Source: Gracilariopsis chorda
Lineage: Eukaryota > Rhodophyta > Florideophyceae > Gracilariales > Gracilariaceae
Direction: 5' to 3'
Assembly (NCBI GenBank): GCA_003194525.1
Contig: NBIV01000423.1
Span: 1-32,026 of the forward strand
Length of the DNA: 32,026 nucleotides
A program made the position numbers and the translations under genes. Shown piece by piece: positions 1 to 32,026 of the stretch (position 1 is the first letter of the stretch; every line of letters starts with the position of its first letter). The notes under the pieces are model-generated. The model did no database searches. It was not told where the DNA came from and saw only the letters and a list, made by a program, of their open reading frames with translations.

Positions 1-887
1 AAATTTGTAGTAGAGTTTGCAGACTGTTTTTGTGGTCTTACAGGTACGTTGTGCTACATGTACCCATAAATGTTCTGAAAATGACCAAACCTAGCCCAAA
101 GAAGATCGGCAGTACGCTGGGTTGGTTTCTTCGCCAGCAAACAAAGCTCACATCAGTAAACGACAGCGCCCATGCGGCTCAGAATATACACTGCATTCAA
201 GTGTTCGAACCATAACGCGCGTAGTATGTTAACCCCTTTCACCATCTGAAAACGGGCGTTTATGAGATTGCATTTGTTGATGTCAAACTGAAATAAGATT
301 GTAGAAGTAGTATCGTCCGCATTACGTTGTTATCTCCCAACCATGTTTCGTTGTACCTTCATGCTGGACAGTTGCATTCCGTGTGCTTGAAAGCAAGATT
401 GCGTTCAGTGATCGACTGAAAACCTCTGTCTGCTCCTCATCTCATAGTCCGGAACATTTGCAGAGCAACCTGTTAGAGGTATAAAGTCTTTGTGCTTCGA
501 TAAACTAAGTCTCGAGGATGCCCCTGTGCCATTTCAGTGATTCTTAAGTAGCCAAGAAAAGTCGGAACGAAGAAAACGGGATCAAGGTGCGGGAACCACC
601 CATTATTAGACTGGTGCTAAACATCTTTACCAGAACCAGGACCGACACAGTGCAGATTTAAAAACCATAACGTCACTCCAAGAGTGACCTCTGTACTTCT
701 AGCTTGTTTTGTTCCCCATGTTTACTTCATTTCATCTCCCTGTACGGTTCGAATGAGGTGGTATTCTACTCGAGACATGATTTGAGAAGGGAGCTTCGTC
801 ATGAACGCTTCCTTGAGCTCAGTTTATCTCCATGTAAGCAGACTGGCTATGCTCACCAGACGAGTAGACCGGGTCAATCGGTTCCAT
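1..887. other. Region without a supportable gene
   Basis: Only short, low-value ORFs are seen. The plus-strand frame at 704-1012 overlaps the 3' end of the minus-strand AlkD-like gene and is judged a shadow. The segment is presumably the 3' flank of that gene. Single-base differences from the second copy (24387-25271) cluster in the first 350 bases, close to the window end. Confidence 0.5.
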
Positions 888-1898
888 TTATGTTGAATCA
901 ATTGTTGGATGTTCCTGTAAATACGCATTCGATCCGTCCCTCACTACGCTTGTTGTTGAAAAAAGGGGAGTTTCAGACCGAACAGCTCCCTGTAATGGTT
1001 GATTCTCTATAGGCGGATGAACATAGCGCTGTATGTTATTAGCCATACCACCAGCATTCGACCGGTGATTCATATTGCTGATTTCGTGCTCTATGTCTCC
1101 GGCAAAGTCGCAGTTGAAGTTCTGCAGAATGATTTCCTTTCTTTTCGAACGCAAAACGTTCTTCCAATCTTGATGATTTGCACAGGCCCTTGTAAGACCA
1201 GGGCCCGTCATCAAAGCCAGATTTCTTTCGTTTGAAAGGAATGTGTAGACTGTGTTCGGAAATCTGTGTGACAACGCTCGAAGTGCGCTTGCCACAACAT
1301 TCTTCGCACATTCATCGCGTTTTGTTAGTAAGAGAACGCACCCTTCAACTACCAAGGACTCGTATATAGCATCCCTTGCCAAAGGGATGAGACAATTCAG
1401 AGCGCTTCTTGCCTTCCAAACGCAGCTCGAACGAAACCATTGCGGGATTATTTGCAGCATAGCTTGACGCTCTCGGATGAGGAGGCCCGTCAAGACTTTC
1501 GTGCTAAAGCTGTCACAGACTTCGTAACAGGACATCAGCCCAGCTTCGAACAGTGCAGAAAAGGCTGTCATCAAGTGGCTTTGTACAGCATTCTCGTTGA
1601 ATAATACTTCGTCAATGAAGACAATGGAGGATAGTTTGTCTTCCAGGTAACTAGAATAGAAAAGCTGAAGCGCTACGTCAATACGGTGTTGTGCAAGAAT
1701 TTCACCGCACTGCGCTCGCCACTCTTCATTCCATGCATGCACCGCAAAACGAATCCCCCCTATTCGGACTCTTCGAAAATGCGTGATTGACTGTGACCGC
1801 TGGCGTTTCCAAGGGCTGGACTCAAATTGAGATTGTCGCTGCAGCAGATTTTGCAGACGAGCGATGCGCAATCGTACGATAGAGTCGTAAGCGTCCAT
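888..1898 (-). CDS. AlkD-like DNA alkylation repair protein (HEAT-type)
   Basis: Single-exon gene of 336 residues. I chose the ATG at 1898 (MDAYDS). The frame is open a little further upstream but without an ATG, and the ATG itself is conserved in the inverted copy at 18264. The protein is mostly helical. Residues about 55-245 resemble the AlkD/DNA-alkylation-repair HEAT family. YEVCD at 125-129 matches the family's W-x-x-x-D helix, with Tyr in place of Trp. VWKARSAL at 160-167 matches the conserved W-x-x-R, and a following helix pair around 187-221 resembles the family's ALR...P...FL pattern. Known members excise or bind alkylated bases. Here the N-terminal 50 residues are basic and the last 80 are low complexity, so the protein is longer than typical members at about 230. 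The assignment is from motif memory only. Glycosylase activity is not shown. Confidence 0.6.
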   Translation of the reverse strand: MDAYDSIVRLRIARLQNLLQRQSQFESSPWKRQRSQSITHFRRVRIGGIRFAVHAWNEEWRAQCGEILAQHRIDVALQLFYSSYLEDKLSSIVFIDEVLFNENAVQSHLMTAFSALFEAGLMSCYEVCDSFSTKVLTGLLIRERQAMLQIIPQWFRSSCVWKARSALNCLIPLARDAIYESLVVEGCVLLLTKRDECAKNVVASALRALSHRFPNTVYTFLSNERNLALMTGPGLTRACANHQDWKNVLRSKRKEIILQNFNCDFAGDIEHEISNMNHRSNAGGMANNIQRYVHPPIENQPLQGAVRSETPLFSTTSVVRDGSNAYLQEHPTIDST

Positions 1899-3511
1899 TG
1901 AATGAGATACGGGTGTTGATTGCTGTAATACTAGCAAGTATATGCAATCTTGGCCACAATTGTTTCCAAAGCTGGTTTGTTCGGGGGAAGAGCAAGAAAT
2001 GGACAGAATGTCCTTCTAGAAAGTACCGTAGACAGCGAGGTTGAAGGGAAACGGATGAAAATTGGGGAACAAAAGGGAAAGCACCAGGGTGTGCGAAGAT
2101 CCAAATGAAGGGTGTTGAGGTTGGCTAGAACATATGATACGACGAAGGCACACGAGCGGCCAAGGCTTTCACAAGCTCAGTATTTATGCCCTGAGTTGAT
2201 AGGCTCTCCGTTAACAGCTGTTTGCACCTTGTTACATGTCAGCGAGTGAGCCACGAAAACACCATAAACAGTAGCTAGAGAGTTTACGTTATCGAGTGCG
2301 CAAGAGGTAAGAAGCGCGGGATAACTTTTATAATACATGTGGTCACGCTCATTGGTATCGAAAGGAACCCCTGTGAACCGCTTCAAAACCCTGTTGAACA
2401 CGCGCCTCCTGAGAACGACAGTCGCGTTCTAAACCACTGCTCTGTTGAAATCAGCCCATCCCCCTCGGATGTGTTTCAGTTGTGCCAGGCCAATCTGCCC
2501 TTGGTAGATACGTGGTGGCAGCCAACAGAAACTTAGGGCTCAAAGCAGAAGCGCTTGATAAAGTATCGTTTACGTGACAAGAACACACACAAATTCAGGA
2601 TCCAGTTTTACAAATGTTTCGAGACCGCATTCCAAACGAGTGACTAACAAAGGCGACCCCCATCACTAAAGTACAGTCTGCTGGTGACGAAATTCGGATT
2701 CTTGGAGGTGGAATTGGACTGTCGCCCTCCGGGCTGCAGTTCACTTCTACTACGAGCCTGATCTTCTAGAAATAATAGCAAAGCAGAATCCGAATGAATG
2801 CAGCGGCACTTCTGAGTACGGAGCTGTCAGCAAATTTTGGCATTGGTCATGAAACGATTAAAATCTCGGTGCATCGGAGTGATATCGTAGTCATGAAGTG
2901 TAAGAACGGGCGTCGTGGAGCCAGACCTAGGCAGCGAAAGATCTCGAGTTTTTCTAACAAGTACAATCTCTGCATGAGAGAGACACTGTCAAACTACAAC
3001 TACCACTGAGTCGACAGTGACTCTTTCTCAGAGAGCTTCACGCTGCACGGCCTGCATTCATGATGTTGTAAAACTCGAAAAAAACATATGATATGATATG
3101 AGGGCTGGATCACCAAACGAGGCTTGAATGCGAGAGAAAGTTGAGGAGGAGCGATACATCCTTGAAGGACTACGTGTCTACATTGAAGTAGAAAGCTTCA
3201 ACATTTTTGAAGGACGTTTGGTGCGGAAACGGATTGCATGTAAGCGCGCTGAGCTGGAGCATTCGGCATGTTACCAGTGTCGGCAAGGGTAAATATCGGT
3301 CACGTGGCAGCACCTGTGCATTAAACTTAGGGTCACAGCCGAGGTGTTAGACAAAGCGACGGGTGTGAGGTTGGTGCGTGGCAAAGTACTACCTCTCAAC
3401 TCACTGCCTGGCAGGTCTTGAGTTGAGAGATCGACCGCGGGGTGTCACATGAATCTTGAGACAACGTGTCTTGTAACCTCTGCGTAGGGACGCCACAAGC
3501 GCGTTACGGGG
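1899..3511. other. Non-coding or decayed part of element A
   Basis: Several short open stretches are shared with A' and B, but none keeps one frame in all copies. One is around 2770-3009: in B its start reads DIIVKQNPKKRSGISEY, and in A and A' a later part reads KCKNGRRGARPRQRKISSF, but each copy has a stop or frame change. A second stretch at 2339-2575 is open in two frames. I treat these as remnants of one or more old coding exons plus the upstream region of the AlkD-like gene. Confidence 0.4.
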
Positions 3512-3787
3512 ATGCGGGATGAAGCAAGGCTGCCGGAGAGATATTACCGACAGCGCAAAAGCTGCGGTATCTACATGTTTCCGGAAGAATGCACCGAAAC
3601 AGGCGCGATCGGTCTGGTTACCTTCGTAGTCGATAACCAGCAATGCCCGACCAAAAGCGCTGACACATATGTGACTTCGAACGCAATGCCGCTTGGCATT
3701 TCAATCGCCGTCACTCTCTCCCGCCGGCTGGCTGCGATCACCTTTCTGTTTCAGCCGGCTCGCAAAGCGATCGAAACACCGCCTTGA
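3512..3787 (+). CDS. Conserved ORF module in element A, unknown function
   Basis: A 91-residue frame starting at ATG 3512 and containing EARLPERYYRQRKSCGIYMF followed by a segment ending TFVVDNQQ. Corresponding frames exist in B (12554-12784), A' (16477-16719, minus) and the second terminal copy (27893-28168). Between A and B several differences fall at third codon positions of this frame and are silent (Ser-Cys, Asn and Ile codons), which favours coding on this strand over the equally open minus frame. Between A and A' most changes alter residues, so constraint is weak or lost. It may be an exon or a decayed gene. I do not recognise the family. Confidence 0.35.
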   Translation: MRDEARLPERYYRQRKSCGIYMFPEECTETGAIGLVTFVVDNQQCPTKSADTYVTSNAMPLGISIAVTLSRRLAAITFLFQPARKAIETPP

Positions 3788-4269
3788 GGGGAGCCGCGCC
3801 AATGACAGTGCCAGCACGAAACCGGCGCTGTCACATAAGCAGCAGTAACAAGTGTTGGCGGAGGAGTAAACCCGCCCGCCCATTCAAAAAGTTGCATTTC
3901 ATCACCGACACTCTCCCCCTCCTTCCCCCCTCCCACAAATGGTTCCAGCGAGCCGTTCGCTCGCGTTGTACGCGCGCTTCCTGGGCGCCGCACAAACGCG
4001 CTGCTGACAGCGCGCCCTCCGCCAAGTGCTTCGGCAACGCGCTCAAATTTAACAAGAAAAAACAGCATCCGCACGAGGCGCGCTCGTACCTGCGCACCAC
4101 CAGCTTCCGTACTTGGCCAAAGCGCGCGTCGTCACCGCTGTGTTTCGCCGCCCCGCCTCTCTTCAAACACAGAGAAAGACAGAACCTGCAACCGTTCCCA
4201 TCACTAACCCCACTTGCACCTCCATCGTCGCAAGGACAGCAATACCCACCTCATCTCTGGCTTGCACAA

Positions 4270-5700
4270 ATGAACGTGACTGTTGGTCAGAACTGTAGAT
4301 AGAGCACTTTCTGTCGATGCGATGTAGCGGCGTCAGGACTATAGAAAAGAGCAGGCACAAGGCCTTGGTAGTTCTCCCAAGGATGCCCCCGACTCCCCAG
4401 AGATGGAACTGGAGTCGGGTTTTTATTTTGCCTTCTTCTGGCGGGTTCCCCAAAGAGGCTGTTTCCTCTTTGGGTTGCGCTGACCAACTACGTTTGGATT
4501 CTAGCGCAATGAGCAGACTGCAACCTACGCAAAAGAGGTGTGGGTAGACTAATAGGATGGGTACCTACCCAAAAACAATGATCAGTTCTTTTGCTACCAC
4601 CTATAGGGTTCCCACCCACGCGCCAGCACATACCTCCGTTAACAGTGACCCCCCGGCCCCCAGGGCTCACATGGTCATCAGCCTTCTCCGCGGCACCCTC
4701 CACAGCACTGCACGTAGCACAAAGTGCCACGCCCGAGCAATCTAGCTCCTATTTTCTCTCGAAATGACCATCCCTAGCACCAGCCTGTTCAGCAGCAGCC
4801 TGCTCAGCTTCAGCTGTCGAACGTGCAGACTTATGTTCAAAACTATCGTACGTTCAATAGCTCACCAATTTCTCCCGCTCCACCCCCTTTCCACCCCCTT
4901 TTTGCCAGCCGCTGACAAACAAGATGTTCTTTTCTCGTTTCCTTACACACAGGCCCCTTCAACTTTCACTACAGCTGCACCGTCAATCTAACCTTAGGTG
5001 ACGGAGAGTGTTTCACTCGAGTAATGTCCTGCCAACAGTGGGCCAACAGAGCCGACAGTTGGCAGGACATGGCTCGAGTGGCGCACTCTCCATCACCTGT
5101 CCCCGCGCCATTCAACCCCATACCGCCTGTGACGTCTGTGCATCCGGCGGGCCGCACGTCTCACCGTACTCCACCCGCCAGTACGCCCCGCAACAGCTGC
5201 TTTCACAGGCGCTCGGCGCATTTCCGTCCGTACGCTCACTACCTCGGCTGTCGCCACTGATGAAACGTCCCTCCAAACGCAGCCGTCTGTCTCCACGTAC
5301 AATGCCCACATCCAACTCCAGCGAGTCTGGGAGTTGCGAAGATAGATTCCATAACATGCATACCCGCAGCTACGGCTCCACGTTGGCCGATGTGAACCAA
5401 ACCTCTCTGAATGACTGGGAGGCTGTGGTAGACATGTATTTGCATGGAAGCGGTGCTCCGGACGGTGTGCCGCTGCGCGATCATTGCAAAGAAGACGGTC
5501 GTCGTGTGAATGACCGCAAACTACTGGAGAAGCGCCGCAATATCGGAAAGACGTTTGAGTTTTTTAGGCGCGTCGAGATTCGAGGCGGCGATCGGCTATT
5601 GTTGGGAGGGCAACTTGCGCCGCATGCAGAAAATGTACAGTGTGATCAGTCGTTGTCGCATTGTGAGCGCCATGAGGAAGGCGGGTCCACACTAATGTAA
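4270..5700 (+). pseudogene. Decayed copy of the spliced gene intact at 14702-15959
   Basis: Exon 1 starts MNV at 4270, is then interrupted by the LTR-like insertion (4281-4644), and resumes at 4645. The intron is recognisable at 4848-4952 (GTACGT to ACACAG, 105 nt), and exon 2 runs from 4953 to about 5684. Besides the insertion there is an in-frame TAG in exon 1 shortly after 4700, a one-base deletion near 5176, and an extra T in the T-run at about 5566-5571. The last is absent from the second terminal copy and so may be a sequencing error. Homology to A' stops near 5684, which removes the C-terminal region. The element copy is therefore judged non-functional. Confidence 0.7.
4281..4644. mobile_element. 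Solo LTR-like insertion (364 bp)
   Basis: A 364-bp segment present in A but absent at the same point in B and A'. It begins TGTTGG and ends GTTAACA, so it has the canonical TG...CA ends with a short TGTT/AACA inverted repeat. It is flanked by a 5-bp direct repeat GTGAC at 4276-4280 and 4645-4649. Those are the marks of an LTR retrotransposon solo LTR left after recombination. It contains two hairpins (4388-4419 and 4449-4474), the first followed by a T-rich run. No internal retroelement coding region is seen anywhere in the window. A small non-autonomous element is the alternative. Confidence 0.65.
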
Positions 5701-5819
5701 TTCGCAGTGGCGAGACGCTAGTAGTACATGGTCCACACAAGCAGTTGCCTCATTCGGGCAGAATGAAAGAAAGATGACCGATACGACCGAAAAGAACGGG
5801 TTCTAACCCAGTGTTAAGA

Positions 5820-6623
5820 ATGCGCTTTTCGCCTACCTCTACTGCGCCGCACCAGCACGCCCCCTCTGTCAAGCAGCAGCAGCAGCAGCAGCAGCAACTC
5901 ATATCGCCCATCAACCGCGCCCTGGGAATTTCGCCCCGCCTAATTGTTGTAGGTGACGTGCACGGATGTATTCATGAGTTGCAGCAGCTTCTCAGATTGG
6001 CTGACTACGCGCCGGGCGATCAAGTCATATTTCTGGGCGATCTCGTTGCAAAGGGTCCGGATTCCCCGTCAGTCGTCCAGTTAGCGCGTGAGATCGGCGC
6101 AAAGACCGTGCGAGGAAACCATGACTATGAGGTCATCCGCTTCTGGGAAGCGCGACGTCGTGGCGACCACGCCATCGTCTCACCCGAGCATGCCGCCATC
6201 GCCGCCAAACTTTCAACTGCAGACGTTAGGTTTTTGGGCGATGCACCGTGGTTCATTGAGGCCGCTGATATGAAGCACTTGTTTGTTCACGCCGGCTTCA
6301 TCCCGCGCGTGAAGCTCACCCAACAGAACCCTCGCCTTATGATGAATATGAGGAGCGTTTTGAAGGACGGAACAGTTACGGCGAAAAGTGTCGTTGGTTA
6401 TGAATGGGCAAAGTTGTGGCAGGGTCCTCACACCGTGGTTTTCGGACATGACGCGTGTCGCGGCTTGCAGCACTTTCAGTATGCTAGGGGAATTGACACG
6501 GGATGTGTTTACGGTGGCCGATTGACCGCTTTACTGTTACCCGAGAATCGACTCATCTCTGTTGCCGCAAAGCGCGCCTATGTGTCTCCGAGGAAGTTGC
6601 GCACCGTTCTTTGTGACCAGTAA
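5820..6623 (+). CDS. ApaH-like metallophosphatase (ALPH, PPP superfamily)
   Basis: Single-exon gene of 267 residues from ATG 5820. Metal-site motifs occur in the order known for PPP-type phosphatases: GDVHGC at 45-50, GDLVAKGPD at 73-81, GNHD at 99-102, HAG at 157-159 and FGHD near 208-211, followed by GIDTGCVYGG at 224-233. GNHD (not GNHE) and the C-terminal GIDTGC..GG block are typical of bacterial ApaH (diadenosine tetraphosphatase) and eukaryotic ApaH-like phosphatases rather than PP1/PP2A. Family members hydrolyse dinucleoside polyphosphates. One trypanosome member is an mRNA decapping enzyme, so the substrate here is open. The N-terminal 40 residues are low complexity with eight Gln (19-26) from a CAG run. 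No signal peptide or membrane segment is evident. Confidence 0.92.
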   Translation: MRFSPTSTAPHQHAPSVKQQQQQQQQLISPINRALGISPRLIVVGDVHGCIHELQQLLRLADYAPGDQVIFLGDLVAKGPDSPSVVQLAREIGAKTVRGNHDYEVIRFWEARRRGDHAIVSPEHAAIAAKLSTADVRFLGDAPWFIEAADMKHLFVHAGFIPRVKLTQQNPRLMMNMRSVLKDGTVTAKSVVGYEWAKLWQGPHTVVFGHDACRGLQHFQYARGIDTGCVYGGRLTALLLPENRLISVAAKRAYVSPRKLRTVLCDQ

Positions 6624-7014
6624 CCTCGTCTGCTGCCCTTTTTATGGTTATTACTCATTATCGCTTCCGCATTCGCATCTGCATCTGCATCTTTACTCCC
6701 TCCTCACCAAATTCTATCTTAACAATTGTACTTTCTTCCCCATGCTTCTAATGGCACATGCACAACTTTTCCCACGTTCTCTGCTCAATCACTCACCTGC
6801 CTTTTTCCTTTTTGTCACATGGTCATGCATGCCAAAACGTCCTATGACGCAAGCACCTGCGTGCATTGCAACGCTGTAAGACTAAACAAAAAAGCTGTTC
6901 GTTGACATCCCCCCATAACCCGACACAAAAACAACAAGTTCTTATGGGTACTGCTCCTGGCCTTGTGCTGGAAACACGTATGTACTGCGTTGCGCGCGTG
7001 ATCCATCTTCTCTC
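6624..7014. other. Phosphatase 3' flank
   Basis: T- and C-rich sequence downstream of the phosphatase stop. It contains a short hexamer array (GCATCT-like units near 6672-6692) and no supportable gene. An overlapping frame entered at 6562 is a shadow of the phosphatase. Confidence 0.5.
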
Positions 7015-7221
7015 ATGGCCCCTCGTACTGAATTATTCTCTCTGTGTAAATGGGCAGTAAACCCGCATACGCAACATCTACACACAAAGCTCCGAAAGGT
7101 TGAGTTACGGGCAAATGCCTCCAACCACCGTTGGGACATTCGCTCTGAAGGGCGCGTTCATTATCTCAAACTGAATGAAACCATCCCCGACTGGAAAAAC
7201 GTAAAGATTCGTCGGGCTTGA
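7015..7221 (+). CDS. Small ORF, unknown
   Basis: A 68-residue frame from ATG 7015, rich in basic residues (KLRKVELR, KNVKIRRA), identical in the second terminal copy at 31392-31598. It follows the phosphatase by about 390 bases. It could be a small gene or the last exon of a spliced one. No family is recognised and there is no independent homologue in the window to test for constraint. Confidence 0.25.
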   Translation: MAPRTELFSLCKWAVNPHTQHLHTKLRKVELRANASNHRWDIRSEGRVHYLKLNETIPDWKNVKIRRA

Positions 7222-7742
7222 ATGGATGCATTACATGTTCGTCGTGCTCGCAACCGCTATATTATTGTGTGAAGTGCGCTGCGCTTGTTGGATTCACGTT
7301 CAGGTTTCCTTTTCTTCGATCTTCACTCCCAGCCATGCAATGACCGCCGGACCTTTGCAAGCGTAGGACCTTGTACAGTAACCTAAGGAATTGACGTGAA
7401 GTCTACAGTAGGTGACGGTTGTAACGCAAAACTGTCACGCAGAATCTGCTCAGTGGCATACGAATTGTATGGCACGATGTAACTGACATATTTACAATCT
7501 TTGGCTCTACCTGGAAGGGTACAGATTAGACATCAATATACCATGGGTGCAGAAGGTAGAAAGGTGGCAGTTGGCACAGTGACCAATGGGCAGCGCGTAC
7601 CGTCGGTGCTGTGTGCACGCACAGTACACGCGCAAGCGCCCCTCCGCCGCCGCAGCGTTGCTTACAACCTTATACACTACTCGCGCCGGCATGCGCCGCG
7701 CCACCGCCGTCCACACACGCCACTCGCTCAGACCACATCGCA
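7222..7742. other. Region upstream of the proline-rich repeat gene
   Basis: No gene is supported. Open frames near 7501-7983 arise from the GC-rich repeat in other frames and start without an ATG or run into the repeat. This is the likely promoter and 5' UTR region for the gene at 7743. The second terminal copy ends inside this region (equivalent of 7650). Confidence 0.4.
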
Positions 7743-8442
7743 ATGTCCAACTATACGCATCCGACGCACTATACTGGCACCCCGCCGCCCCCGCCCCCGA
7801 ACTATAGGCATCCAACGCACTATACTGGCACCCCGCCGCCGCCGCCGCCCAACTATAGGCATCCGACGCACTATACTGGCACCCCGCCGCCGCCGCCCTC
7901 GTCTTCGTCCTCTAGGTCCAACTATAGGCATCCGACGCACTATACTGGCACCCCGCCGCCGCCGCCCCGTCTTCGTCCTCTAGGTCCAACTATAGGCATC
8001 CGACGCACTATACTGGCACCCCGCCGCCGCCGCCCCGTCTTCGTCCTCTAGGTCCAACTATAGGCATCCGACGCACTATACTGGCACCCCGCCGCCGCCG
8101 CCCCCGTCTTCGTCCTCTAGGTCCAACTATAGGCATCCGACGCACTATACTGGCACCCCGCCGCCGCCGCCCCCGTCTTCGTCCTCTAGGTCCAACTATA
8201 GGCATCCGACGCACTATACTGGCACCCCGCCGCCGCCGCCCCCGTCGTCGTCCTCCGGCGCAGGCACTGACAACCCACCACCGCTTCCCACCGGCTATCT
8301 CGGTCAGCCGCCGCCGCTGCTCGGCTTTGTCTATCCTACTTACCCAGGCCTACTGCCGCCGCCTCCCCGATCCTCGTCCAGCACTTCCCGGCACGTGCGC
8401 AAGATCAAACGACGCGCGAAGCAGATGTCGCGAAAATCTTGA
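7743..8442 (+). CDS. Proline/tyrosine-rich tandem-repeat protein, frame broken within the repeat
   Basis: ATG 7743 opens MSNYTHPTHYTG, followed by repeat units of NYRHPTHYTGT plus a run of Pro and then SSSSR (23 residues in a full unit). The tail after the repeat returns to a compatible frame and ends at TGA 8440-8442, with a Pro-rich stretch and then a basic end (RKIKRRAKQMSRKS). Two units are 68 nt instead of 69 because a C run is one base shorter, so as written the frame closes at 8051. The two losses together leave the tail two bases out of frame. Either both are homopolymer errors or the gene is broken. Pro/Tyr/His repeats suggest a structural or surface protein, but no signal peptide is visible. 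Confidence 0.55.
7749..8262 (+). repeat. Minisatellite, eight units (51/68/69 bp)
   Basis: Units start with AACTATAGGCATCC-like sequence at 7749, 7800, 7851, 7920, 7988, 8056, 8125 and 8194. Their lengths are 51, 51, 69, 68, 68, 69, 69 and about 69 bp. The 51-bp units lack the block encoding SSSSR-S. Later units are nearly identical to one another, which points to recent unit-by-unit expansion. The array is very GC-rich with CCG runs, which also makes it error-prone in sequencing. Confidence 0.95.
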
Positions 8443-10383
8443 TTCGCACCTTGGCTCGTGTCCGTTTGTACGTAGCCGTCACGTGCCGGCGTATCCGTTT
8501 TGGAACAATCTCTTGGCTTCGCTACCCCCCCTTTGCCCGCACTATGTAGCACTTCTGTGCGTCTCCCACGCGTGACCCCCTTTGGCCGCTGTATGTGTGT
8601 GCCCGTTCCACCATTGGCACCGCGTTATGCTTGCGCCTTTTCTCTTGTGCTCCGGTCCGCTGTTTCCACTTCTGCTTGGCAATACCGAAAAGCATGTTCT
8701 TCAGCTCGAGAGTCGTCTGTAAAAATACAAGCGCCATCGTGTATACCTTGTGCCCTCATTTCTTTCAACAGGCGCTGTGTTATTATAAACCTTCACTTGC
8801 TACCTTCGCTTTCTTCGTTTATTGCCACTACCCTATAGGTCTAGTAAGTCTACACCTCTCCAATATTTTTCAACGCTTCTTCGCGCCCCCCCTACCCTAC
8901 CCTTGCTACAACGGAATGCGCATCTGCGTCAGCAGCTACTGGCCCACATATTGACACCGAAGCATGACCATTAACCTTACTGGAGTTAAGATATCCCTCC
9001 CAAGTTGCAAAGCTAGCAGTGTAATCCCCGCCATCTCATACCTCCCTAACCTTAAGAAGCTTGTGGCCTCACACTCGCACGTCACCACAGGGGTATAAGA
9101 ATCTAAATTTACTGTCGCCACTTTGCATCATCGCTGTGCTTGCAAACGCAACAACACCTCACCGCCAACTATCCAGCCCCCAATTTTGCCTCCCCAACTT
9201 CAGTACGTTTGGCCTAAAGTATTGTCCAAAAGCCTCAAGAGCAGGTCCTGCACGTCTCCACACACACGCAAAATCATCAGTAAACCCGTTTCCTCATCAC
9301 GTGAGTAAGTCAAACGACGTCCGCTCGTAAATCTCCGTCATGTTGCTTTCCATCCACTAAAGCTACCGCGGGGATATCAACTCAAGCTTCCAACCCAAAA
9401 CCCACTTGTTCTAACCTTCTCCACCCACTAATGACAAAATTTCTTCATACGAGCAACCGATATTCAACCCACGAGAGGTCTCGACATAATGTTTCTTCAA
9501 TCACAGCCTCCCACACGATCATCACGCAACACTCGTCTTCTCGTATTTACGAAGTTGTCATCTATCTTCGGTAACCGGTACACGTATTTCAAGCCTTTTT
9601 AACACACCACCACAGCCGTGTCCGTCTCCAAATTCTCGGTAGCGCCACGGGAAACCGTTGGGTTCCATCCCGTCCTCCCTTCTGCAGTCGCCAAACGCGC
9701 GCTCACCACTGCCTTTTCCCTCCTCCTCTTGACCGTGACTTTTAGGCACGAGCGTTCGACTACAACGATCGGCTCCTGCTTCGTAACGTAGTTGGAGTGA
9801 ACGTCTCATTTCGATATCTGCAGCAGAAAGGCAATCTAGAGCCCTTTCGGTACCGTTGGTACCACATCCCTATATCACCTATTCTGGCTCATACAGCGTC
9901 AGCATGTAGCATACACCATCTCTACCCCATTACAGATCTCGTGTTACGCTTGCAAGCCTTAATTCCCCAGAAATGCCAGCCCAGCACTTTGTCTGTCCAC
10001 AGACATCGAGTATCGGACTCATTTCCCTACAGACGCTCGTCCACTCCTTCCACTCGTTCTCTACAGGATGTCGGTAAAGGCACGCGCCGCGAAAAAGTGG
10101 AAGGCATCGCGCCCCCTTTGCACCACCCAGAAACAGCGGCGGCATCTCTCGTCGTGTTGTCTTGTCTTCCTCCATACCTCCAACACAAGATAGAAAGAAA
10201 GACTCAAAAAGTCCACTTTCCTTGGATCTCGGCGTACTGCACGATACAACCCTGCGAAATCAACTTGGAGCCGTACCCTATTAACTCTGTAAAAACCAGG
10301 AATGACATTGTGAAGCAACATGGGCACGGGAGCTTTAGAGGGAGACACGAATGTAAGCTAAACGATATTGAACGGGACCATGA
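8443..10383. other. Intergenic stretch, no supportable gene
   Basis: Pyrimidine-rich plus strand with many short ORFs on both strands. The longest frame (9797-10396, plus) starts at GTG, has no ATG upstream and shows no recognisable domain. A minus frame at 9558-9809 has an ATG and a hydrophilic Gly/Glu-rich composition but nothing else in its favour. I see no RNA gene and no repeat related to the A/B modules. Confidence 0.45.
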
Positions 10384-10788
10384 GCGTTTTATTTGACAGT
10401 TGGAAGCGAGATTGGTAATATTGCACGCTGGACGGGGAATGCGTCAAGGGAGTTTGCAAAACTCTGTGAAGACAACACTGTCTTCAACCATGCAACGTTT
10501 GTGTGTACAAGTCTCAATGAACTTCTGACAATTGATTGAACCTATACTAGAATTCGGGACTACCTCAGCGAAGGCGACCGTTTGCTATGTCCTTTCAGTG
10601 TATCTCAAAAGGTACAGCAAAGCGCATGTGCTCACAAGCGTATAGTTCATTCAGAAGCTCGCGCCAGTGACCGCTGAGCGCGTGGAGGCCGCAGTTTTGC
10701 AAAGAATGCTCGAATCTATTGATGCCTTTCTTGTCGAGCTTCAAGAGACAGCGCTGGAGATGGGAATTAGAAACATAGATTTCGGAAA
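10384..10788 (+). pseudogene. Decayed protein-coding remnant
   Basis: Reading GCG at 10384 onward gives a coherent segment (EIGNIARWTGNASREFAKLC... up to CTSLNELL). A shift of one base near 10528 is needed to continue into QLIEPILEFGTTSAKATVCY and VLSVYLKRYSKAHVLTSV. A TAG at 10643-10645 is followed in the same frame by FIQKLAPVTAERVEAAVL and an amphipathic helix, ending at TGA near 10786. Composition is protein-like throughout. The frameshift plus stop indicate a pseudogene or an unrecognised intron. The family is not recognised. Confidence 0.4.
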
Positions 10789-11836
10789 CGCTTGAAGAAG
10801 AGGAAGTTTTTTTGGGGGCGATTCACGCCTTTGTCTGAGGGGGAAGATCAGCTAGTGAACGCACAGGAAGCAACGGTAACGATCGAGATGGAAACGTTTT
10901 GGCGTCTCATTCCGGCAAAGAAGACGCGATATTGAACAAAGCAATGGAGTTCATCGGCCACAGCTGACGATGTGACTTAGAAGGCTTTGAAACAATTTAA
11001 TAGCATTCCAGCAGTACAGTCTATGATCGCGTGCATTTAATGAACATTTTCGGAAGTATGATAAAGTTTAAGAAACCAGGCTGTAATTTACTCCCTGCAA
11101 AACTGAAAACTGATATGCTACCTGTTGCGCAAGAAAAACGGGGGAGGACGCGCATTGTTTTTGTGGGGGTGGAGGTGATGCGGACAAAAGCGCCCCGGAC
11201 TTTACTGGTGTGCGAGTTGCTTCTTACCTCATTTTCAGGCAGTAAAACGGCGAGACTAAGCGATGCACAGTTATGTGGACAAAATGCTCAGCTTCCATGC
11301 TGAAAGCCGGGCAGCGCCCAATAAAATATGCAGAATGAAAACCATATCTAAACCATCGCGTGTGCACCACAAGCACGTGATACAGTCCCCTTTCAAAGCG
11401 CCGCCCCAAGCTGTGTTTCAGCATTTTATAACCAGACCTTTCACCCAAGCTTTGTGCTCTTTTGCTTGACAATTTTAAAGATCACGCTAACACCATACTA
11501 CCTCAAAAAAGAGTCTAAAGTGACTAACTACCAAGCTGAACGTGAACAACACGACTAGAAAACGCCCATTAAAAATATATTTCTGTAAAACCTACGCCCC
11601 CAAAGCTGATCTACAAAATCGTTTTAAAAGAGAGATAGGTGTTTGAATACAAAACAAAATCGTGGGAAAAGGGGCATAATCGCACGACGCAAGCAAAAGC
11701 GTCGGCAGCAAGTACCTAGCAAACCAGTATCCAAGACATCAACTCAAAACAATCCAATCTCTCAATAACAAAAGCCCTCAGTAGATCTTTCTCTGGGAAA
11801 AAAAATGTTTCGATGTTTCCACGATTACGCCTTGTT
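10789..11836. other. Region between the remnant and element B
   Basis: It may contain more of the remnant: an open segment at about 10806-10935 reads LVNAQEATVTIEMETFWRL before a stop. A plus frame at 11031-11303 is open but featureless. From about 11500 the sequence is A-rich and shows no gene. Homology to element A begins at about 11837. Confidence 0.35.
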
Positions 11837-13592
11837 TCTAGATATAATAGTAAAGCAGAATCCGAAAAAACGCAGCGGCATTTCTGAGTACAGAGCTATC
11901 TGCAAAACTCTCGGCATTGGTGATGAAAAGAATGAAATTTGGGTGCGTCGAGATGCTATGCTACTGTAGTCCTGAAGTGTAAGAACGGGCGTCGTGGAGC
12001 CAGACCTAGGCAGCGGAAGATCTCGAGTTTTTCTGACAAATACAATCTCAGGATGAGAGTGACACTGTCAAACTAGAACTACCACTGGGCCGAGAGCGAC
12101 TCTTTCTCAGGCAGCTTCACGCTGCATGGCCTGGATTCATGATGTTGTAAAACTCGAAAAAAACAGATGATATGATATGAGGGCTTGATCACCAAACGAG
12201 GCTTGAATGCGAGAGAAAGTTGAGAAGGAGCGATACGTCGTTGAAGGACTCGTGTCTGCATTTAAGTAGAAAGCGTTACCATTTTCGGAGTACGTTTGGT
12301 GCGGAAACGGATTGCACGTGAGCGCGTTGAGCTGGAGCGTTCGGCATGTTACCAATGATGGCCAGGGTAGATATCGGTCACGTGAGCATTACTTAGGGTC
12401 AGAGCAGAGGCGTTGGGCAATGCAACGGGTGTGATGTTGGTGCGTGGCAAGCTACTACCTCTCAACCCACCACCTGGCACGTAGTGAGTTGAGAGATCGA
12501 CCGCGGGGTGTCACGTGAATCTTGAGACAACGCGTCTTGTAATCTCTACGTAGGTGCATCACAAGCGCGGTACGGCTGAAGCAAGGCTGCCAGAGAGAGA
12601 TTACGGACAGCGCAAAAGTTGTGGTATCTACATGTTTCCGGGAGATTGCACCGAAACAGGCGCGATCGGTGCGGTAACCTTCGTAGTCGATAATCAGCAA
12701 TACCCGACCGAAAGTGCTGACACACAGGTGAACTCGAACACAGTGCCATTTGGCATCTCAATCGCCGTCACTCTCTCCCGCTAGCGGGCGGCGATCACAT
12801 TTTCTTTTTCAGCCGGCTTGAAAAGCGGTCAAAACGCCGCCTTGAGGGCAGCCGCGCCAAGGACAGTGCCGGTACGAAACCGACGCTGTCACATACGCAG
12901 CAGAAATAAGTGTTGGAGGAGGAACAAGCCCGCCCGCCCATTCAAAAAGTTACACCCCGTCACCGACACTCTCTCCCCCCCCCCTCCCCTATCCAGCGAG
13001 CCGTTCCACGCGTTGTACATACGCTCTCTGGACGCGGCACAAACGCGCCGTGGACAGCGCAGCCCCCGTCACGTGCTCCGGTACCGCACCCAAACTAACG
13101 CGAAAAACAGCATCCGCACGTGACACGCACGTACCTTCGCACCACCAGCTTCCGTACTTAAGGGAGAGCGCGCCGGCACCGCTCTGCTTCGCCGCCCCAC
13201 CTCTCTCTTCCAAAACGAAGGAAGGCAGAACCTGTGACCCTTCCCATCACCAACTCCGCTTGCACCTCCATCGCTGCAAAAACACCAATACCGGCTCAAT
13301 CTCTGGCACCCACAAATGAACGTCACTCCCCCTGGCCCCACGGTTCACGTAATCATCAGCCTTCTTCGAAGCACCCCCCGCAGCACCCGTCGCGGCTCCC
13401 GCTCCCGTTGCAGCACCCTCTGCAGCACCCTTCACAGCTCCGTTCGCCGCTCTCTCTCTTCCACACACTCCGCAGAACTGGACGAACACAACTGCGCCAG
13501 GCCCGAGCAATCTGCCGCCAGTGGTCTATCATAATGACCACCCCAATGGTGAGCCTGCCCAGCTTCAGCGGCCGGGCGTGCAGAGATGTGGG
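11837..13592 (+). repeat. Element copy B, direct orientation (partial)
   Basis: Homologous to element A from about 2768 onward, with more divergence than between the terminal repeats. It lacks the 364-bp insertion found in A, so it marks the empty site: the ATG at 13317 runs directly into the Thr-Pro-Pro codons. B stops at about 13592 within exon 1 of the spliced gene, where the sequence folds back into the inverted segment 13593-14438. Confidence 0.8.
12554..12784 (+). pseudogene. Conserved ORF module, copy in B
   Basis: Counterpart of 3512-3787. It carries EARLPERDYGQRKSCGIYMF and TFVVDNQQYPTESAD, but no ATG precedes the conserved part and it stops at TAG 12782-12784, earlier than in A. 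Probably a decayed copy. Confidence 0.4.
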
Positions 13593-19604: not shown

Positions 19605-20158
19605 ATGGATCTTCACATATCAAACTTTCCGTTCGATGTGCTGCAGCGCATTTTCAGTATTGGGGTTAAGGAAGTGTGGTGCCCATCTTATGAAGAATAT
19701 TCAGACTTTTCTGAGTCCTCCGAGGAAGATGTTGAAGATGGCTATAGCCTTCTTTTCAAACCAGATCGTGACCCTTTCAGGGAATCCCAATGAACTTCTG
19801 ACATTGATGCAGCGCGCAAAAGTGTGTACGGTGTGGTCAGGCGCCATCATTGAAAAGCAGTTTTGGGAGTCAGTTGTTACCACCATGTTCCGTGAACAGT
19901 ATACGGAGCCTTGGAAACTCGGACGAAGAGGGAACGCTCTGTTTGCGGATGTACCTGTACCGATACTCGGTACAATGGACCAGTTTCTTTCAAATATAGG
20001 AAAGATTTAGACATCGATTCGTAGAGGACGCCCGCATTTTCACGTATACCTGCCTATCTCTAGTGATCGAAGGCGCGAAACCATCAGAGCATGGTTCAGT
20101 TTGGGACTATTTCTTCGGACGTGCACCCCAATATTTCGAATATGAAGACAGGAGATGA
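19605..20158 (+). CDS. F-box protein, spliced
   Basis: Proposed exons 19605-19656, 19781-19950 and 20000-20158. Intron 1 (19657-19780, 124 nt, GTATTG...CTTTCAG) removes an acidic out-of-frame stretch and joins FPFDVLQRIF to RNPNELLTLMQRAKVCTVW, giving a complete F-box at residues 6-50, including V-C-x-x-W and the F-W of QFWESVV. Intron 2 (49 nt) is less sure; it joins GNALFAD to ERFRHRFVEDARIFTYTC. The frame ends at TGA 20156-20158. The overlapping next frame (DDLTRGRRVGFATLIL...) looks coding up to about 20350, so a one-base indel may hide a longer protein that the inverted copy then cuts. An upstream exon starting at ATG 19341 with donor 19361 and acceptor 19594 would keep the frame. F-box proteins recruit substrates to SCF ubiquitin ligases. 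Confidence 0.6.
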
Positions 20159-20356
20159 TGATTTAACAAGAGGCAGACGGGTCGGCTTTGCAACTTTAAT
20201 TCTCAACGATTGGCCTTTACTACAGAGTTCGGACGTTGATCTTGCAGAAAACGGCATACTTTCTCCCGCAATACCGAGATCTCGAACGGAGTTCTATTCA
20301 AAAGCAGAGCTTGTCATAAGAACTAATCCACCATATCCGTCTATCAAGAAGCTTTC

Positions 20357-20720
20357 TTGTGCGCATTGCATCAATGTGAAAACTTCAGGGATTCCCTGAA
20401 AATCGTCACGGTCTGGTTTTAAAAGAAGGCGATAGCCACCTTCAACATCCTCCTCGGAGGACTCAGACAAGTATGCGTATTCTTCATGAGCTGGGCGCCA
20501 CGCTTCCCTAACCCCAATACTGAAAATGCGTTGAAGCACATCAGACGGAAAGTTGGACATGTTTAGATCTGTGGTGAATCCTGAAAGAACTATGTTCAAT
20601 GCCCGAGCTAGTCCAGATATCGAAGGAAATAGGGAAGAGGTGACCTATGGAGAGAAGTTCCGTAAGAATACTACACGCATGGGCCTGCATATCTGAGATA
20701 GCGACGGCCGTCGGTTCATG
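20357..20720 (-). pseudogene. Broken inverted copy of the F-box gene
   Basis: Reads MSNFPSDVLQRIF on the minus strand with the same intron donor (GTATTG) and acceptor (TTTTCAG). Exon 2 has lost two bases after the Asn-Pro codons, so the spliced frame meets a stop at once. Read without splicing, the intron keeps an open acidic frame (LSESSEEDVEGGYRLLLKPD), which is why an unspliced ORF of 101 codons exists. Truncated soon after the F-box start. Confidence 0.65.
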
Positions 20721-21132
20721 ATACCCTTACAGTTCGATAATGAAGGGTGATCAAATGCTTTCTGCGGCGGACCGGCGGTCGCACAAGTCTCAACATGCGC
20801 GTGTTTGTTGCCCCCACACAATGCGTAGGGGCCCCGAAGCGGACTAAACGCCGTTTGGGCAGTAGGACGTACGAAGTAAAGGCCAGCTTGTGCTAGAAGA
20901 ACTCCGGAGGAAGGAGGCCGCCTCAGTAGAGCTTCTGAGGTCTTTGTGGCTGCTGCTCTCTCTGACAGACTGCCACTGAAGGCAGTTTTCCGCGTAGCAT
21001 ATTCGACCAACAAGCGCTTCGAGACATCAAATCGTACCGAGACGCGACAAGGGAAATATATCGACTTGCGGACTGGTCAATTCCGTCCAGGCTCAAACTG
21101 GCACACATCTCGAGGGATTTCAGAGCCAGTGA
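20721..21132. other. Region downstream of the inverted F-box copy
   Basis: A minus frame here (20645-21013) merges with the F-box leader in a different frame from the copy and looks like a shadow. No gene is supported. Confidence 0.35.
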
Positions 21133-21899
21133 ATGAAGTCATCTCTGCATGTTCCACGACTTCAAGATTTGCGCACCGAGGATATAAATGTTGATGTCAT
21201 GTCACTACAGCAGACTTCCAGCTCTCATGTTGGCCGTCCATTTGGTACGAATGCAGTTCAAACACCCCCTAGCACATCGCAGACTTTGCAAGTGGGTGCC
21301 ACTGATGCTGGAGGGGGGTCACAAGGTGCGCCACACTATGACCTGGATCAAGATGAAAAGGATCAAAACCGACCACAACAATTTACGCCACAGATGTCAC
21401 ATTATGAGGGTTCTCGGCAAGAACCAGATACATTGTCTCATTCAGTGCTGTACGCCAGCTGTGAACTTGGACAGTACTCTATCTCTTCACTATCCAACAA
21501 AGCAAACGCCACTCTCTTGGAATGCCGTCTTGTTTGCCAATATCTCAGGAAATCGAAGACGGAGAGGGTCAGATTGTCCAGAGGCCTGGGCCGTTCGCAC
21601 ATGAGTCCAGGTATGGCAATCAAAACTGCTATAAGAAGAAGCACACCAATAGCACTGCATCATCGCGTCGGTCCAGTACGATGCACTTCTTCTTTACAGA
21701 TTCAATGGATGGCTTTGCAGCTATCACGGGCGACGAATCGAGCGTTTCAAACGCTCAGAACGGGGCAGATATCCCAGAATGTCCAGCCATATGCAATACT
21801 GGGAATGGTCCTGCCAGCGAAGAAGCCCATCTTCTAGAAGAGTGGCCTGAAGACATAGAAGAGGAGCTGGAAAGATTATATATGCGAAAACAAGCGTAA
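21133..21899 (+). CDS. Hypothetical protein, two frames (intron or frameshift)
   Basis: From ATG 21133 a polar frame runs with Ser/Gln/Asp-rich content (HYDLDQDEKDQNRPQQFTPQ), plausible to about 21520. A second frame then takes over (ISQEIEDGEGQIVQ ... CPAICNTGNGPASEEAHLLE ... EDIEEELERLYMRKQA) and stops at 21899. The acidic coiled end is convincing coding sequence. Neither frame covers both parts, so an intron near 21470-21530 or a frameshift is needed. The family is not recognised. A related acidic block lies at about 22630-22838. Confidence 0.4.
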
Positions 21900-22163
21900 G
21901 AAAGAGGCAATGAGAGCAGCGAGGTTATCGAGTTCGAGACGAGGAAGTAAGTGATTACAACTCATGCGGGGCCAATCCCGTATCGCTCAGGCTGTGCAAG
22001 TTTTGCCCTCAAGTTCTTCCGTTCAAGCAAGCGTGAGTTAATCCACAGCCCCGAGTACAGGCAACAATTTTCCAGTTTCATCCCTCCCTACCTACTACCC
22101 ACGGATCTGAGCATGTGCAGGTATCATCTCACATGATCGTCTCTGTGAGAACAGGCTCAATCG

Positions 22164-22838
22164 ATGTATCAACATCAGAGCCAACATCAGCATCCATTAC
22201 GATCCCCTGAGTCCTGTGCCGTTGTGTATACCTGGAATCATTCCTCAATACGCATCCCCTCATCCATGGCAGTAGACGTTTTCCCCGAACTATCTACTCG
22301 GTCTGCATCTGGTTCTTGTCGTGTAACGGAGAATGGATCTTATAAGGGAGTTGATCCACTGTCACTGAATTTCTCGCATCAAGACATAGGTGCTAGCACG
22401 TCTGAAAACAGTGCAGCAGCAGATTGTAATCGCTGCAACAGCGGTGAATGTTGTAGCATAAGACGGGGGTTGCATCAACGTACAAACATCTGCACCGCAC
22501 GGCACGAAGAACAACATGGTACTGGCAGGACTACTTGGGCTGTACGGGCGGTGCCCTATGCCTGTTCAGCAGCGTGCACTACTGGAAACAGGGTCTTGGC
22601 AGAATGAGAACAGAGATGTCACGGGAGAGTGATTCACGATCTTGCAATCTGCGCTAATGAGCATGGACCTGCTTCAGAAACAAGATGATCGCTAGAAGAT
22701 CAGACTACAAGCAAATCGGATTGCGAGAAGGGTGAATCTCGTACCTCAACAGAGAGCGAAGGTGGCGCACCTTTTGACCCCCCTCCAACATCGGTGGAAC
22801 ATCATCTCCCACTCTTTGTTAACATGCGTAAGAACTGA
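22164..22838 (+). pseudogene. Related hypothetical coding fragments
   Basis: A frame at 22164-22607 starts MYQHQSQHQHPLRSPES and is Ser/His/Cys-rich. A separate frame from about 22615 reads DLAICANEHGPASETR, then TGA, then SLEDQTTSKSDCEKGESRTS and on to TGA 22836-22838. The block ICANEHGPASE matches ICNTGNGPASE at about 21787-21822, so the two loci share an ancestor. The in-frame TGA and the separate upstream frame suggest decay. Confidence 0.35.
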
Positions 22839-23023
22839 TGCCAAAAAGACGAATCATCTGCGTATACCTGAGTAATATTGAGCGCTGCCTCGTAAGCTTT
22901 CACAAGCACCTTGCCGTCGATGGCTGAGCCTGCAGCCATAGCTTCAGCAGCTCCGATAGATCGATAGATAGGGACTCTGACTCTGACAACCCATCCTTCT
23001 CAGCGCCCACCTGTTGTCTTAAT

Positions 23024-23376
23024 CTAGACCGACACTCTCTCCGTGACTGGTTTCGATCCAAGCCCTTCAACGTTATTTATGGCCCCAGATACAGGGTTCG
23101 CGGGATCAAGTCCCGCCTGCTTCAAGAAAATGGCTTCTGTGCGCAGCCACTGTAACCGCGATGCAGTGTGAGAGCTGCTACACCCAAGCAGATATGCCAA
23201 GCAAGAGATGGGTCGACGCCCGCAACAAAGAGGAGAAGTATAAATGGATGAATTACCTGTGCAGCGAACCAGCACAAGAGCGCCGGATTGACTCCATCGT
23301 TTTTCATAGATCTCACCACTGCGTTCCAAGTGCTTTGGCCTTCGCCAATGCCCGAGTACATGTAACCATGTCCCAA
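23024..23376 (-). CDS. Possible spliced gene fragment with PPR-like text
   Basis: Two frames are joined by a candidate 107-nt intron (23256-23150; CAG|GTAATT ... GGTTACAG). The upstream exon reads GEGQSTWNAVVRSMKNDGVN..LCWFAAQ and the downstream exon WLRTEAIFLKQAGLDPANPV, phase 0. STWNAVVRSMKNDGVNP resembles a pentatricopeptide repeat, but only one unit is visible. More coding-like minus sequence lies beyond, around 22800-22960 (GAAEAMAAGSAIDGKVLVKA or an alternative frame), so the gene probably has further exons. The start is not defined: the frame opens without a clear ATG before 23361. Confidence 0.35.
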
Positions 23377-23832
23377 GCTCTGTTTGCCTTGTTGCTTTCA
23401 TGACGGGTTTTGGCGGGAACCAAAGTGTTTTTATGCCCGGAAAATCTGACTGCGTCATTTGATCCCTTTCAGACTTGGGGACGTTGGAGTAAACTCATAT
23501 AGGGACATGTTTACAAGGTTTGGAAGATAATTGTCACATGGTTTTTGAGGTAAGGGTCTGTAAACGTTCGGAAACTGGTGGTTTGGACTTTCATTTCCTT
23601 CAAAACGTCTATTACGACGATGGTATGAAACGACGAATTACAGTTATAACGACGAATTCTATGGCGAACAGTTAACCATGGCTTTCATGTACCGCTACGA
23701 GAATCCTCACGTACTACAATGCTTTCCAGCAGAAGCCCTACGTTTTTCGGAGAGCATGGAATGTCAACCGCAAGATTTCAGTTACGCATTGGAGCACATG
23801 TGCTGATTATTGAATTGAGCGAGTAAAAAGAT
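23377..23832. other. No supportable gene
   Basis: Only short ORFs on both strands. The minus frame starting at 23458 overlaps the candidate spliced exon in another frame. This may contain the 5' region of the minus-strand gene fragment. Confidence 0.4.
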
Positions 23833-24198
23833 CTAAACTTGTTGCTGGCACAACTCATTTTTGACAACCTCTATGAGCTCTCTCAGAACCTCCAAAGTCA
23901 GACATTTCATCTCTGGTTGCTGCTCTATCTTCGTCAAACGCATATTCTGCTTTCTGTTACTGGCTCGTTGAACCACATTACTTAACGCTGTGATGAAGGA
24001 GTAACACGCTCTTGTAATGGCAGCTCTCAATTTCAGTCACCTTCTTTTCGAGGGGCACAACAATTTGTTGGACGGAGTCTCTTTCGTGAGCTCGACCAAC
24101 ACACCTGTTTCTCCCTGCACTGGCTTCCAGCAGCCGGTTTGAACTGCCCTCCCCGAAGGGCCTGGTTTCCGAGGTATCACAAGTACTTTCTCGTTCAT
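23833..24198 (-). pseudogene. Minus-strand ORF split by one in-frame TGA
   Basis: From ATG 24198 the frame reads MNEKVLVIPRKPGPSGRAVQ ... LLCPSKRR, meets TGA at 24037-24039, then continues in the same frame LKLRAAITRACYSFITAL ... LEVLRELIEVVKNELCQQQV to TAG at 23833. The second half is an amphipathic helix, probably a coiled coil. The whole would be 121 codons. A nonsense mutation, a sequencing error, readthrough, or two unrelated frames are all possible. No family recognised. Confidence 0.35.
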
Positions 24199-25271
24199 GA
24201 TGTCAAAGGGGTAACTGAAATACAATTTTCCTAGTGTGCGTTACACTAATGCCCAATGCTGATGAAGCTATATGGTGAACGGTCTGGCTGATTCTTTGTA
24301 CAGAATGCCAGGACTCATCTTTTATATCATTGTAATGCTACGATCGACACATCTAGAAGGTGCTTACTCTATCCTATCGGAGACACAAATTTGTAGTAGA
24401 GTTTGCAGACTGTTTTTGTGGTCTTACAGGTACGTCTGTGCTACATGTACCCATAAATGTTCTGAAATGACCAAACCTAGCCCAAAGAAGATCGGCAGTA
24501 CGCTGGGTTGGTTTCTTCGCCAGCAAACAAAGCTCACATCAGTAAAACGACAGCGCCCATGCGGCTCAGAATATACACTGCATTCAAGTGTTCGAACCAT
24601 AACGCGCGTAGTATGTTAACCCCTTTCACCATCTGAAAACGGGCGTTATGAGATTGCATTTGTTGATGTCAACTGAAATAAGATTGTAGAAGTAGTATCG
24701 TCCGCATTACGTTGTTATCTCCCAACCATGTTCGTTGTACCTTCATGCTGGACAGTTGCATTCCGTGTGCTTGAAAGCAAGATTGCGTTCAGTGATCGAC
24801 TGAAAACCTCTGTCTGCTCCTCATCTCATAGTCCGGAACATTTGCAGAGCAACCTGTTAGAGGTATAAAGTCTTTGTGCTTCGATAAACTAAGTCTCGAG
24901 GATGCCCCTGTGCCATTTCAGTGATTCTTAAGTAGCCAAGAAAAGTCGGAACGAAGAAAACGGGATCAAGGTGCGGGAACCACCCATTATTAGACTGGTG
25001 CTAAACATCTTTACCAGAACCAGGACCGACACAGTGCAGATTTAAAAACCATAACGTCACTCCAAGAGTGACCTCTGTACTTCTAGCTTGTTTTGTTCCC
25101 CATGTTTACTTCATTTCATCTCCCTGTACGGTTCGAATGAGGTGGTATTCTACTCGAGACATGATTTGAGAAGGGAGCTTCGTCATGAACGCTTCCTTGA
25201 GCTCAGTTTATCTCCATGTAAGCAGACTGGCTATGCTCACCAGACGAGTAGACCGGGTCAATCGGTTCCAT

Positions 25272-30998: not shown

Positions 30999-31391
30999 CC
31001 TCGTCTGCTGCCCTTTTTATGGTTATTACTCATTATCGCTTCCGCATTCGCATCTGCATCTGCATCTTTACTCCCTCCTCACCAAATTCTATCTTAACAA
31101 TTGTACTTTCTTCCCCATGCTTCTAATGGCACATGCACAACTTTTCCCACGTTCTCTGCTCAATCACTCACCTGCCTTTTTCCTTTTTGTCACATGGTCA
31201 TGCATGCCAAAACGTCCTATGACGCAAGCACCTGCGTGCATTGCAACGCTGTAAGACTAAACAAAAAAGCTGTTCGTTGACATCCCCCCCATAACCCCGA
31301 CACAAAAACAACAAGTTCTTATGGGTACTGCTCCTGGCCTTGTGCTGGAAACACGTATGTACTGCGTTGCGCGCGTGATCCATCTTCTCTC

Positions 31392-31598
31392 ATGGCCCCT
31401 CGTACTGAATTATTCTCTCTGTGTAAATGGGCAGTAAACCCGCATACGCAACATCTACACACAAAGCTCCGAAAGGTTGAGTTACGGGCAAATGCCTCCA
31501 ACCACCGTTGGGACATTCGCTCTGAAGGGCGCGTTCATTATCTCAAACTGAATGAAACCATCCCCGACTGGAAAAACGTAAAGATTCGTCGGGCTTGA
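31392..31598 (+). CDS. Small ORF, terminal copy 2
   Basis: Identical to the 68-residue frame at 7015-7221. Unknown function. Confidence 0.25.
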   Translation: MAPRTELFSLCKWAVNPHTQHLHTKLRKVELRANASNHRWDIRSEGRVHYLKLNETIPDWKNVKIRRA

Positions 31599-32026
31599 AT
31601 GGATGCATTACATGTTCGTCGTGCTCGCAACCGCTATATTATTGTGTGAAGTGCGCTGCGCTTGTTGGATTCACGTTCAGGTTTCTTTTCTTCGATCTTC
31701 ACTCCCAGCCATGCAATGACCGCCGGACCTTTGCAAGCGTAGGACCTTGTACAGTAACCTAAGGAATTGACGTGAAGTCTACAGTAGGTGACGGTTGTAA
31801 CGCAAAACTGTCACGCAGAATCTGCTCAGTGGCATACGAATTGTATGGCACGATGTAACTGACATATTTACAATCTTTGGCTCTACCTGGAAGGGTACAG
31901 ATTAGACATCAATATACCATGGGTGCAGAAGGTAGAAAGGTGGCAGTTGGCACAGTGACCAATGGGCAGCGCGTACCGTCGGTGCTGTGTGCACGCACAG
32001 TACACGCGCAAGCGCCCCTCCGCCGC

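Follow-up and report, generated by a model that had tools for sequence, protein, structure and literature searches.

The subject of this analysis is contig C423 (NBIV01000423.1) of the Gracilariopsis chorda assembly GCA_003194525.1. The window, meaning the whole stretch of DNA that was analysed, is 32,026 bp long; it is the complete contig, and its edges are the contig ends. The contig carries a copied ApaH-like phosphatase (ALPH) gene, an AlkD-like open reading frame (ORF) and three copies of a module that recurs in many other contigs, among the matches listed. Its two ends are nearly the same sequence, and C423 makes about 1.31 turns of a repeat unit of 24,386 bp. We prefer, with a probability of roughly one half, to read C423 as a head-to-tail repeat of this unit that collapsed in assembly, the unit being a mosaic that was amplified and homogenised within a chromosomal array.

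The starting point is the overlap of the contig with itself. Self-BLAST of the window aligned bases 1-7650 with bases 24387-32026 at 99.43% identity over 7664 columns, with 6 mismatches and 33 gap openings, and the match runs from base 1 through base 32026. One full unit can be placed, in arbitrary phase, at 1..24386, its length being the offset of the self-match; the rest of the contig (24387..32026, forward strand) is a second pass over bases 1-7650. The first-pass annotation had described shared ends, a repeat reaching the window edges exactly and a unit of about 24.38 kb, and all three points were borne out. A 7.6-kb match at 99.4% lies far beyond chance. We also considered that the overlap might be a dispersed 7.65-kb repeat; this was rejected, as searches of the assembly (91.3 Mb in 1081 contigs) gave no further copy. 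The proposal that the contig overruns its start, whether the source is a circle or a tandem array, matches the data, and the assembly alone fits either.

What is the unit made of? It is a mosaic of genome pieces, because its ApaH-like gene is a copy, truncated at the 5' end, of a gene found at a chromosomal locus. Within the loci that were fetched, pieces of at least 100 bp from elsewhere cover 78.8% of the unit, none of them at 98% or more; genome-wide, the highest match outside C423 is a 275-bp dispersed repeat reaching 98%. The copied ALPH part with its 3' flank (5823..7374, forward strand) is 97.5% identical to C24:55794-57338, on a contig of 480 kb. The similarity starts inside a longer C24 coding region, which shows that the C423 copy is truncated at its 5' end; unlike the C24 locus, it lacks the upstream coding part and uses a new ATG as its start. 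The resulting ORF of 270 aa (5811-6623, forward strand) was recognised by Pfam and has the motifs GDVHG at 48, GDLVAKG at 76, GNHD at 102, HAG at 160, VVFGH at 209 and IDTG at 228. In the motif description of PMC8220851, the ALPH family has six motifs, with conserved distances between motifs 1 and 2 (28-30), 2 and 3 (26) and 5 and 6 (19). Counted from start to start, which is one reading of that description, the corresponding distances in C423 are 28, 26 and 19, and the ORF thus resembles the family in having all six motifs at typical spacing.

Over 241 codons, 10 synonymous and 2 nonsynonymous changes separate the C423 gene from that of C24 (omega 0.064, Fisher p 3e-5). At both nonsynonymous sites the relative P0002 shares the C423 residue, while P0006 and P0009 differ; judged by that one relative, the two changes may be derived in C24. 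Another possible source of the substitution pattern is that a different allele was copied very recently. In the assembled C24 gene, the reading frame is shifted by a single-base difference (L014, about 4840) that lies upstream of the catalytic part, and this may be an assembly error. Besides the window's own entry, the best database match of the phosphatase is a eukprot entry at 81%; Tribonema, Triparma, Heterosigma, Scytosiphon, Vaucheria and the red alga Pyropia, all ranked lower, are among the 120 listed of 4630 matches.

The second component of the unit is the module family, which had been noticed in the first-pass annotation and was recovered by self-BLAST. The three copies are about 78-91% alike over their aligned pieces. 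Copy 1 lies at 1866..5686 on the forward strand, as delimited by self-BLAST and locus comparison; copy 2 lies at 11835..14437, also forward, with an inverted inner part (13585-14437); copy 3, at 14853..18295 on the reverse strand, is inverted relative to copy 1. The stretch 11835-13388 of copy 2 is 94-95% identical to modules that other contigs repeat at 13.9-17.4 kb in long-unit arrays. Some of its parts also match the array in C459 at about 92%; the 5,609-bp units of that array agree with one another at 100% over 3,392 bp.

Tandem arrays with units of several kilobases are found inside large contigs, namely C75 (units of about 5.6 kb, in a 302-kb contig), C140 (9.8 kb) and C69 (5.2 kb). One class of modules repeats at 13.9-17.4 kb, and a search with the non-module part of this class returned 28 matches spread over 24 contigs. 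Among these arrays, at least one is joined to a large contig, because C778, a member of the class, runs into the sequence of C122:3200-9000 at about 100% and C122 (228 kb) itself opens with 3.16 kb of array (C122:1-3162). The flank shared by C122 and C778 includes a multi-copy element with direct copies of about 365 bp roughly 5.1 kb apart, and it looks like a long terminal repeat element.

The differences between the two passes were considered as a possible means of telling a circle from an array. They comprise 6 substitutions, 27 insertions or deletions (indels) in homopolymer length and 6 other indels, one of which is 6 bp long, at 3494. The homopolymer indels, which form the majority, look like consensus errors, and the real divergence would be at most about 6 substitutions and the one 6-bp indel, a figure that applies whether the structure is a circle or a homogenised array. 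Because the differences are mainly of this type, the two passes are either recent copies or the same copy. Nine control pairs from the same assembly, which are not independent since several share loci, were compared in the same manner. In eight of them substitutions outnumbered indels (19:5, 38:3, 12:1, 13:2, 4:0, 11:7, 74:22 and 23:12), and the nine pooled gave 196 substitutions to 62 indels, versus 6 to 33 in C423 (Fisher p about 4e-13). The ninth pair, two units of the C75 array, has 2 substitutions and 10 indels. The pattern was rejected as a discriminator, since these resolved array units are equally indel-rich; it marks recent identity plus consensus error, not circularity.

Comparison with relatives adds some detail. 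At 28 difference sites the left pass was favoured at 12 and the right pass at 6, with no informative relative at 10, and private changes are present in both passes. Against C24, the right pass has 25 substitutions and 9 indels and the left pass 26 and 4; the middle of the unit has 61 and 7 against C56.

From both a circle and a long, near-identical array that no read spans, an assembler can yield a contig that overlaps itself. The count of head-to-tail units in C423 is 1.31, and a circle would look identical. A collapsed array is slightly likelier a priori, because multi-kilobase arrays are common in this genome; in its favour are the closure of the whole contig on itself and the close identity of the stretch 11835-13388 to array modules. 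That C423 itself is seated in a chromosomal array is something we infer. Several observations weigh against it. Searches of the assembly that jointly covered the unit found, among the matches listed, no other contig holding the 24.4-kb unit or its border, with 40/82, 40/183, 40/77, 39/145, 40/180 and 40/53 candidates scored in the border searches, at which depth a short border overlap could be missed. The closest long pieces outside C423 reach 97.5% (C24), 93-97% (C56) and 97% over 365 bp (the end of C717). By contrast, the class with 14-17-kb units gave its many matches plus a border. A genuine array should have left reads that cross its border, and the missing border favours a circle. Two contig ends were examined as candidate borders and taken to be relatives instead: that of C717, whose 365-bp match differs mostly by substitutions, and that of C335, at 93% over 408 bp.

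The strongest competitor, which we hold to be quite possible at somewhat under even chances, is a free extrachromosomal circular DNA (eccDNA) of 24.4 kb, in which array modules are joined with copied chromosome pieces and the assembly overlap was left untrimmed. The closure of the contig at both ends speaks for it, as does the lack of a border contig or a second contig of the unit. The excess of small indels in the right pass (25:9) relative to the middle of the unit (61:7) would fit an untrimmed overlap that was poorly polished, but the left pass is not indel-rich (26:4), which makes the polishing argument weak, and the units of the C75 array in its large contig are as indel-rich as the two passes. 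Moreover, a collapsed array yields an identical contig, modules of this family lie at least in part on chromosomes, and no replication gene was recognised when 103 of the 114 open frames with 75 codons or more were scanned. The proposal of an extrachromosomal element in the first-pass annotation therefore stands in part: the failure of the border searches to find the unit or its borders in other contigs agrees with it, but related modules form arrays, at least one of which continues into a large contig, and a collapsed array would look the same. A more elaborate version, which we consider unlikely, makes C423 a member of a population of nuclear circles that share the module, possibly for their maintenance, recruit host gene fragments (the ApaH-like phosphatase and the AlkD-like gene) under purifying selection, and exchange with chromosomal arrays.

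Could the contig be no continuous molecule at all? Self-BLAST shows many repeats and inverted repeats in the unit and the assembly contains many short repeat contigs, so that a path looped through repeats can be envisaged; no other copy of the 7.65-kb overlap was found in the assembly, however, so that it does not link unrelated paths as a dispersed repeat would, which leaves an artefact highly improbable. Lower still do we place a Helitron-like or other transposon, that is, a rolling-circle element with captured host gene fragments of which a circular intermediate or a tandem insertion was assembled. Copied gene fragments, head-to-tail closure and related tandem arrays are what such an element would produce, but the Pfam scan of the same 103 frames found no replication, transposase, recombinase, Rep or helicase domain; a non-autonomous element would lack them too. 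Weak Pfam matches to DUF6858, DUF3099 and Herpes_V23 (E 0.002-0.008 in 103 frames scanned) were taken as chance.

For the collapsed chromosomal array, a course of events can be proposed. Genome pieces, including the 3' part of the C24 ALPH gene, 3 kb of C56 and others, would have been joined to array-forming modules, and end joining or template switching may have set them side by side. The composite unit would then have been amplified and homogenised, either by unequal crossing-over or by excision, rolling-circle copying and re-integration. The direction of copying between C423 and the chromosomal loci is presumed in this scheme. Circles may coexist with the array, as their release from tandem repeats in chromosomes has been reported. 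The two states are not mutually exclusive: for satellite and 5S rDNA repeats, circles are found whose lengths are multiples of the unit.

Long-unit tandem arrays and eccDNA are both known kinds of structure; it is the composition of C423 that is unusual. In the accounts of satellite and 5S rDNA eccDNA for plants (PMC2543021) and human (PMC3225859), circles come in multiples of the chromosomal tandem units, and excision by homologous recombination is proposed. An origin of this kind would fit the kinship of the C423 unit to chromosomal arrays, but the unit differs from these repeats in its length of 24.4 kb and its copied gene pieces. Another possible parallel is the EPSPS eccDNA replicon of Amaranthus palmeri (Koo et al. 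2018, as summarised in PMC10469358), a 400-kb circle that carries 59 protein-coding genes, was demonstrated by fluorescence in situ hybridisation and is tethered to chromosomes for transmission. Both would be large circles with protein-coding genes; unlike the 400-kb replicon, C423 is 24.4 kb long and a candidate circle. Helitrons, as treated in PMC5148889, capture genes, form circular intermediates and insert in tandem, and the closure or tandem arrangement of C423, together with its gene capture, may be counterparts of these features. C423 is unlike autonomous Helitrons in that no Rep/helicase was found in the scanned frames.

The stakes of the question are easily stated. If C423 is a circle, it would be an eccDNA with genes, and no report of one was found for its lineage: searches of the literature on stramenopiles, where the matches concerned Crypton transposons and telomeres, and on algal genome assemblies returned none. 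If it is an array, pieces of the genome, including a gene fragment with all family motifs, form part of a tandem repeat with long units. The overlap of a contig with itself, when met in a eukaryotic assembly, does not on its own count as evidence for a circle.

The AlkD-like ORF encodes 349 aa on the reverse strand at 888..1937 (open frame 891-2015, 375 codons) and recurs in the second pass at 25272-26321. The first-pass annotation had named both this ORF and the phosphatase, and Pfam supports the two assignments; here the match is to DNA_alkylation (PF08713), at 45.7 bits against a cut-off of 21. The structure model, built from a two-sequence alignment, is weak (mean pLDDT 62.9), and in the Foldseek search with it AlkD ranks first at E 0.08, with no match at E<=0.001; a sequence search of the PDB gave no match. 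The protein would resemble AlkD-type DNA alkylation repair proteins by its above-cut-off domain match. It has a single relative at E<=0.001 (62%) among 2027 scored candidates, in a database search that reaches relatives with shared exact words only.

Within the assembly, the AlkD-like family has two intact-looking members, those of C423 and C347, and several broken ones. The C347 relative has 70% protein identity and an omega of 0.36-0.40. Stops or frame breaks interrupt the relatives in the fetched stretches of C425, C569, C752, C495, C414 and C527, and more distant broken relatives lie in C335 and C918. The contigs C425, C569, C752 and C495 form one group and C414 and C527 another, with 99.4-99.7% likeness in the compared stretches; they are perhaps retained haplotypes or recent duplicates.

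The module encodes an ORF of 292 aa (14702..15580, reverse strand) with a conserved domain of unknown function. This domain, which carries the strings DRKLLEKRR and KQKMY, recurs in 30 database proteins (by source label, lgn 21, jgi 4, ncbi 3, eukprot 1, ena 1). Pfam gave no match for the module protein or for protein P0121, and the sequence search of the PDB gave one match at E 0.66, nothing convincing. Among IMG/VR viral contigs, relatives were confirmed neither for the AlkD-like protein nor for the module-protein alignment. One protein of the module family, P0122, has a database entry assigned to the red alga Agarophyton chilense, where its contig is 21.8 kb long, and may come from another organism in the sample.

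The rest of the mosaic consists of smaller segments. The window and eight related stretches contain no known RNA genes. A dispersed repeat of 171 bp (7374..7544), with full-length copies elsewhere at 87-96%, is followed by a segment (7540..10931, forward strand) 93-97% identical to C56:326918-329922, on a contig of 338 kb. This segment contains a minisatellite of 51/69-bp units, which had been placed at 7749-8262 and by repeat analysis spans about 7747..8255 on the forward strand; it is longer here than in C56. The next segment (10930..11835) belongs to a repeat family, with 80% identity to C79:1912-2810 and further partial relatives at 69-85% in many contigs. Beyond the modules lie the dispersed repeat of about 275 bp (18936..19210; copies 95-98%) and, by sequence search, a segment common to the 5.6-kb tandem array of C75 (19455..20809; 83-88%). 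The stretch 20813..21177 is 97% identical to the end of C717 (1-366) and, up to 21131, also 93% to C630. The forward-strand segment at 21132..22764 is 88-89% identical to C918 and C75:199086, matches the end of C335 at 93% over 408 bp, and begins within a longer C918 open frame. Last, sequence search places a segment at 23672..24074 that is 80% identical to C527 and C368.

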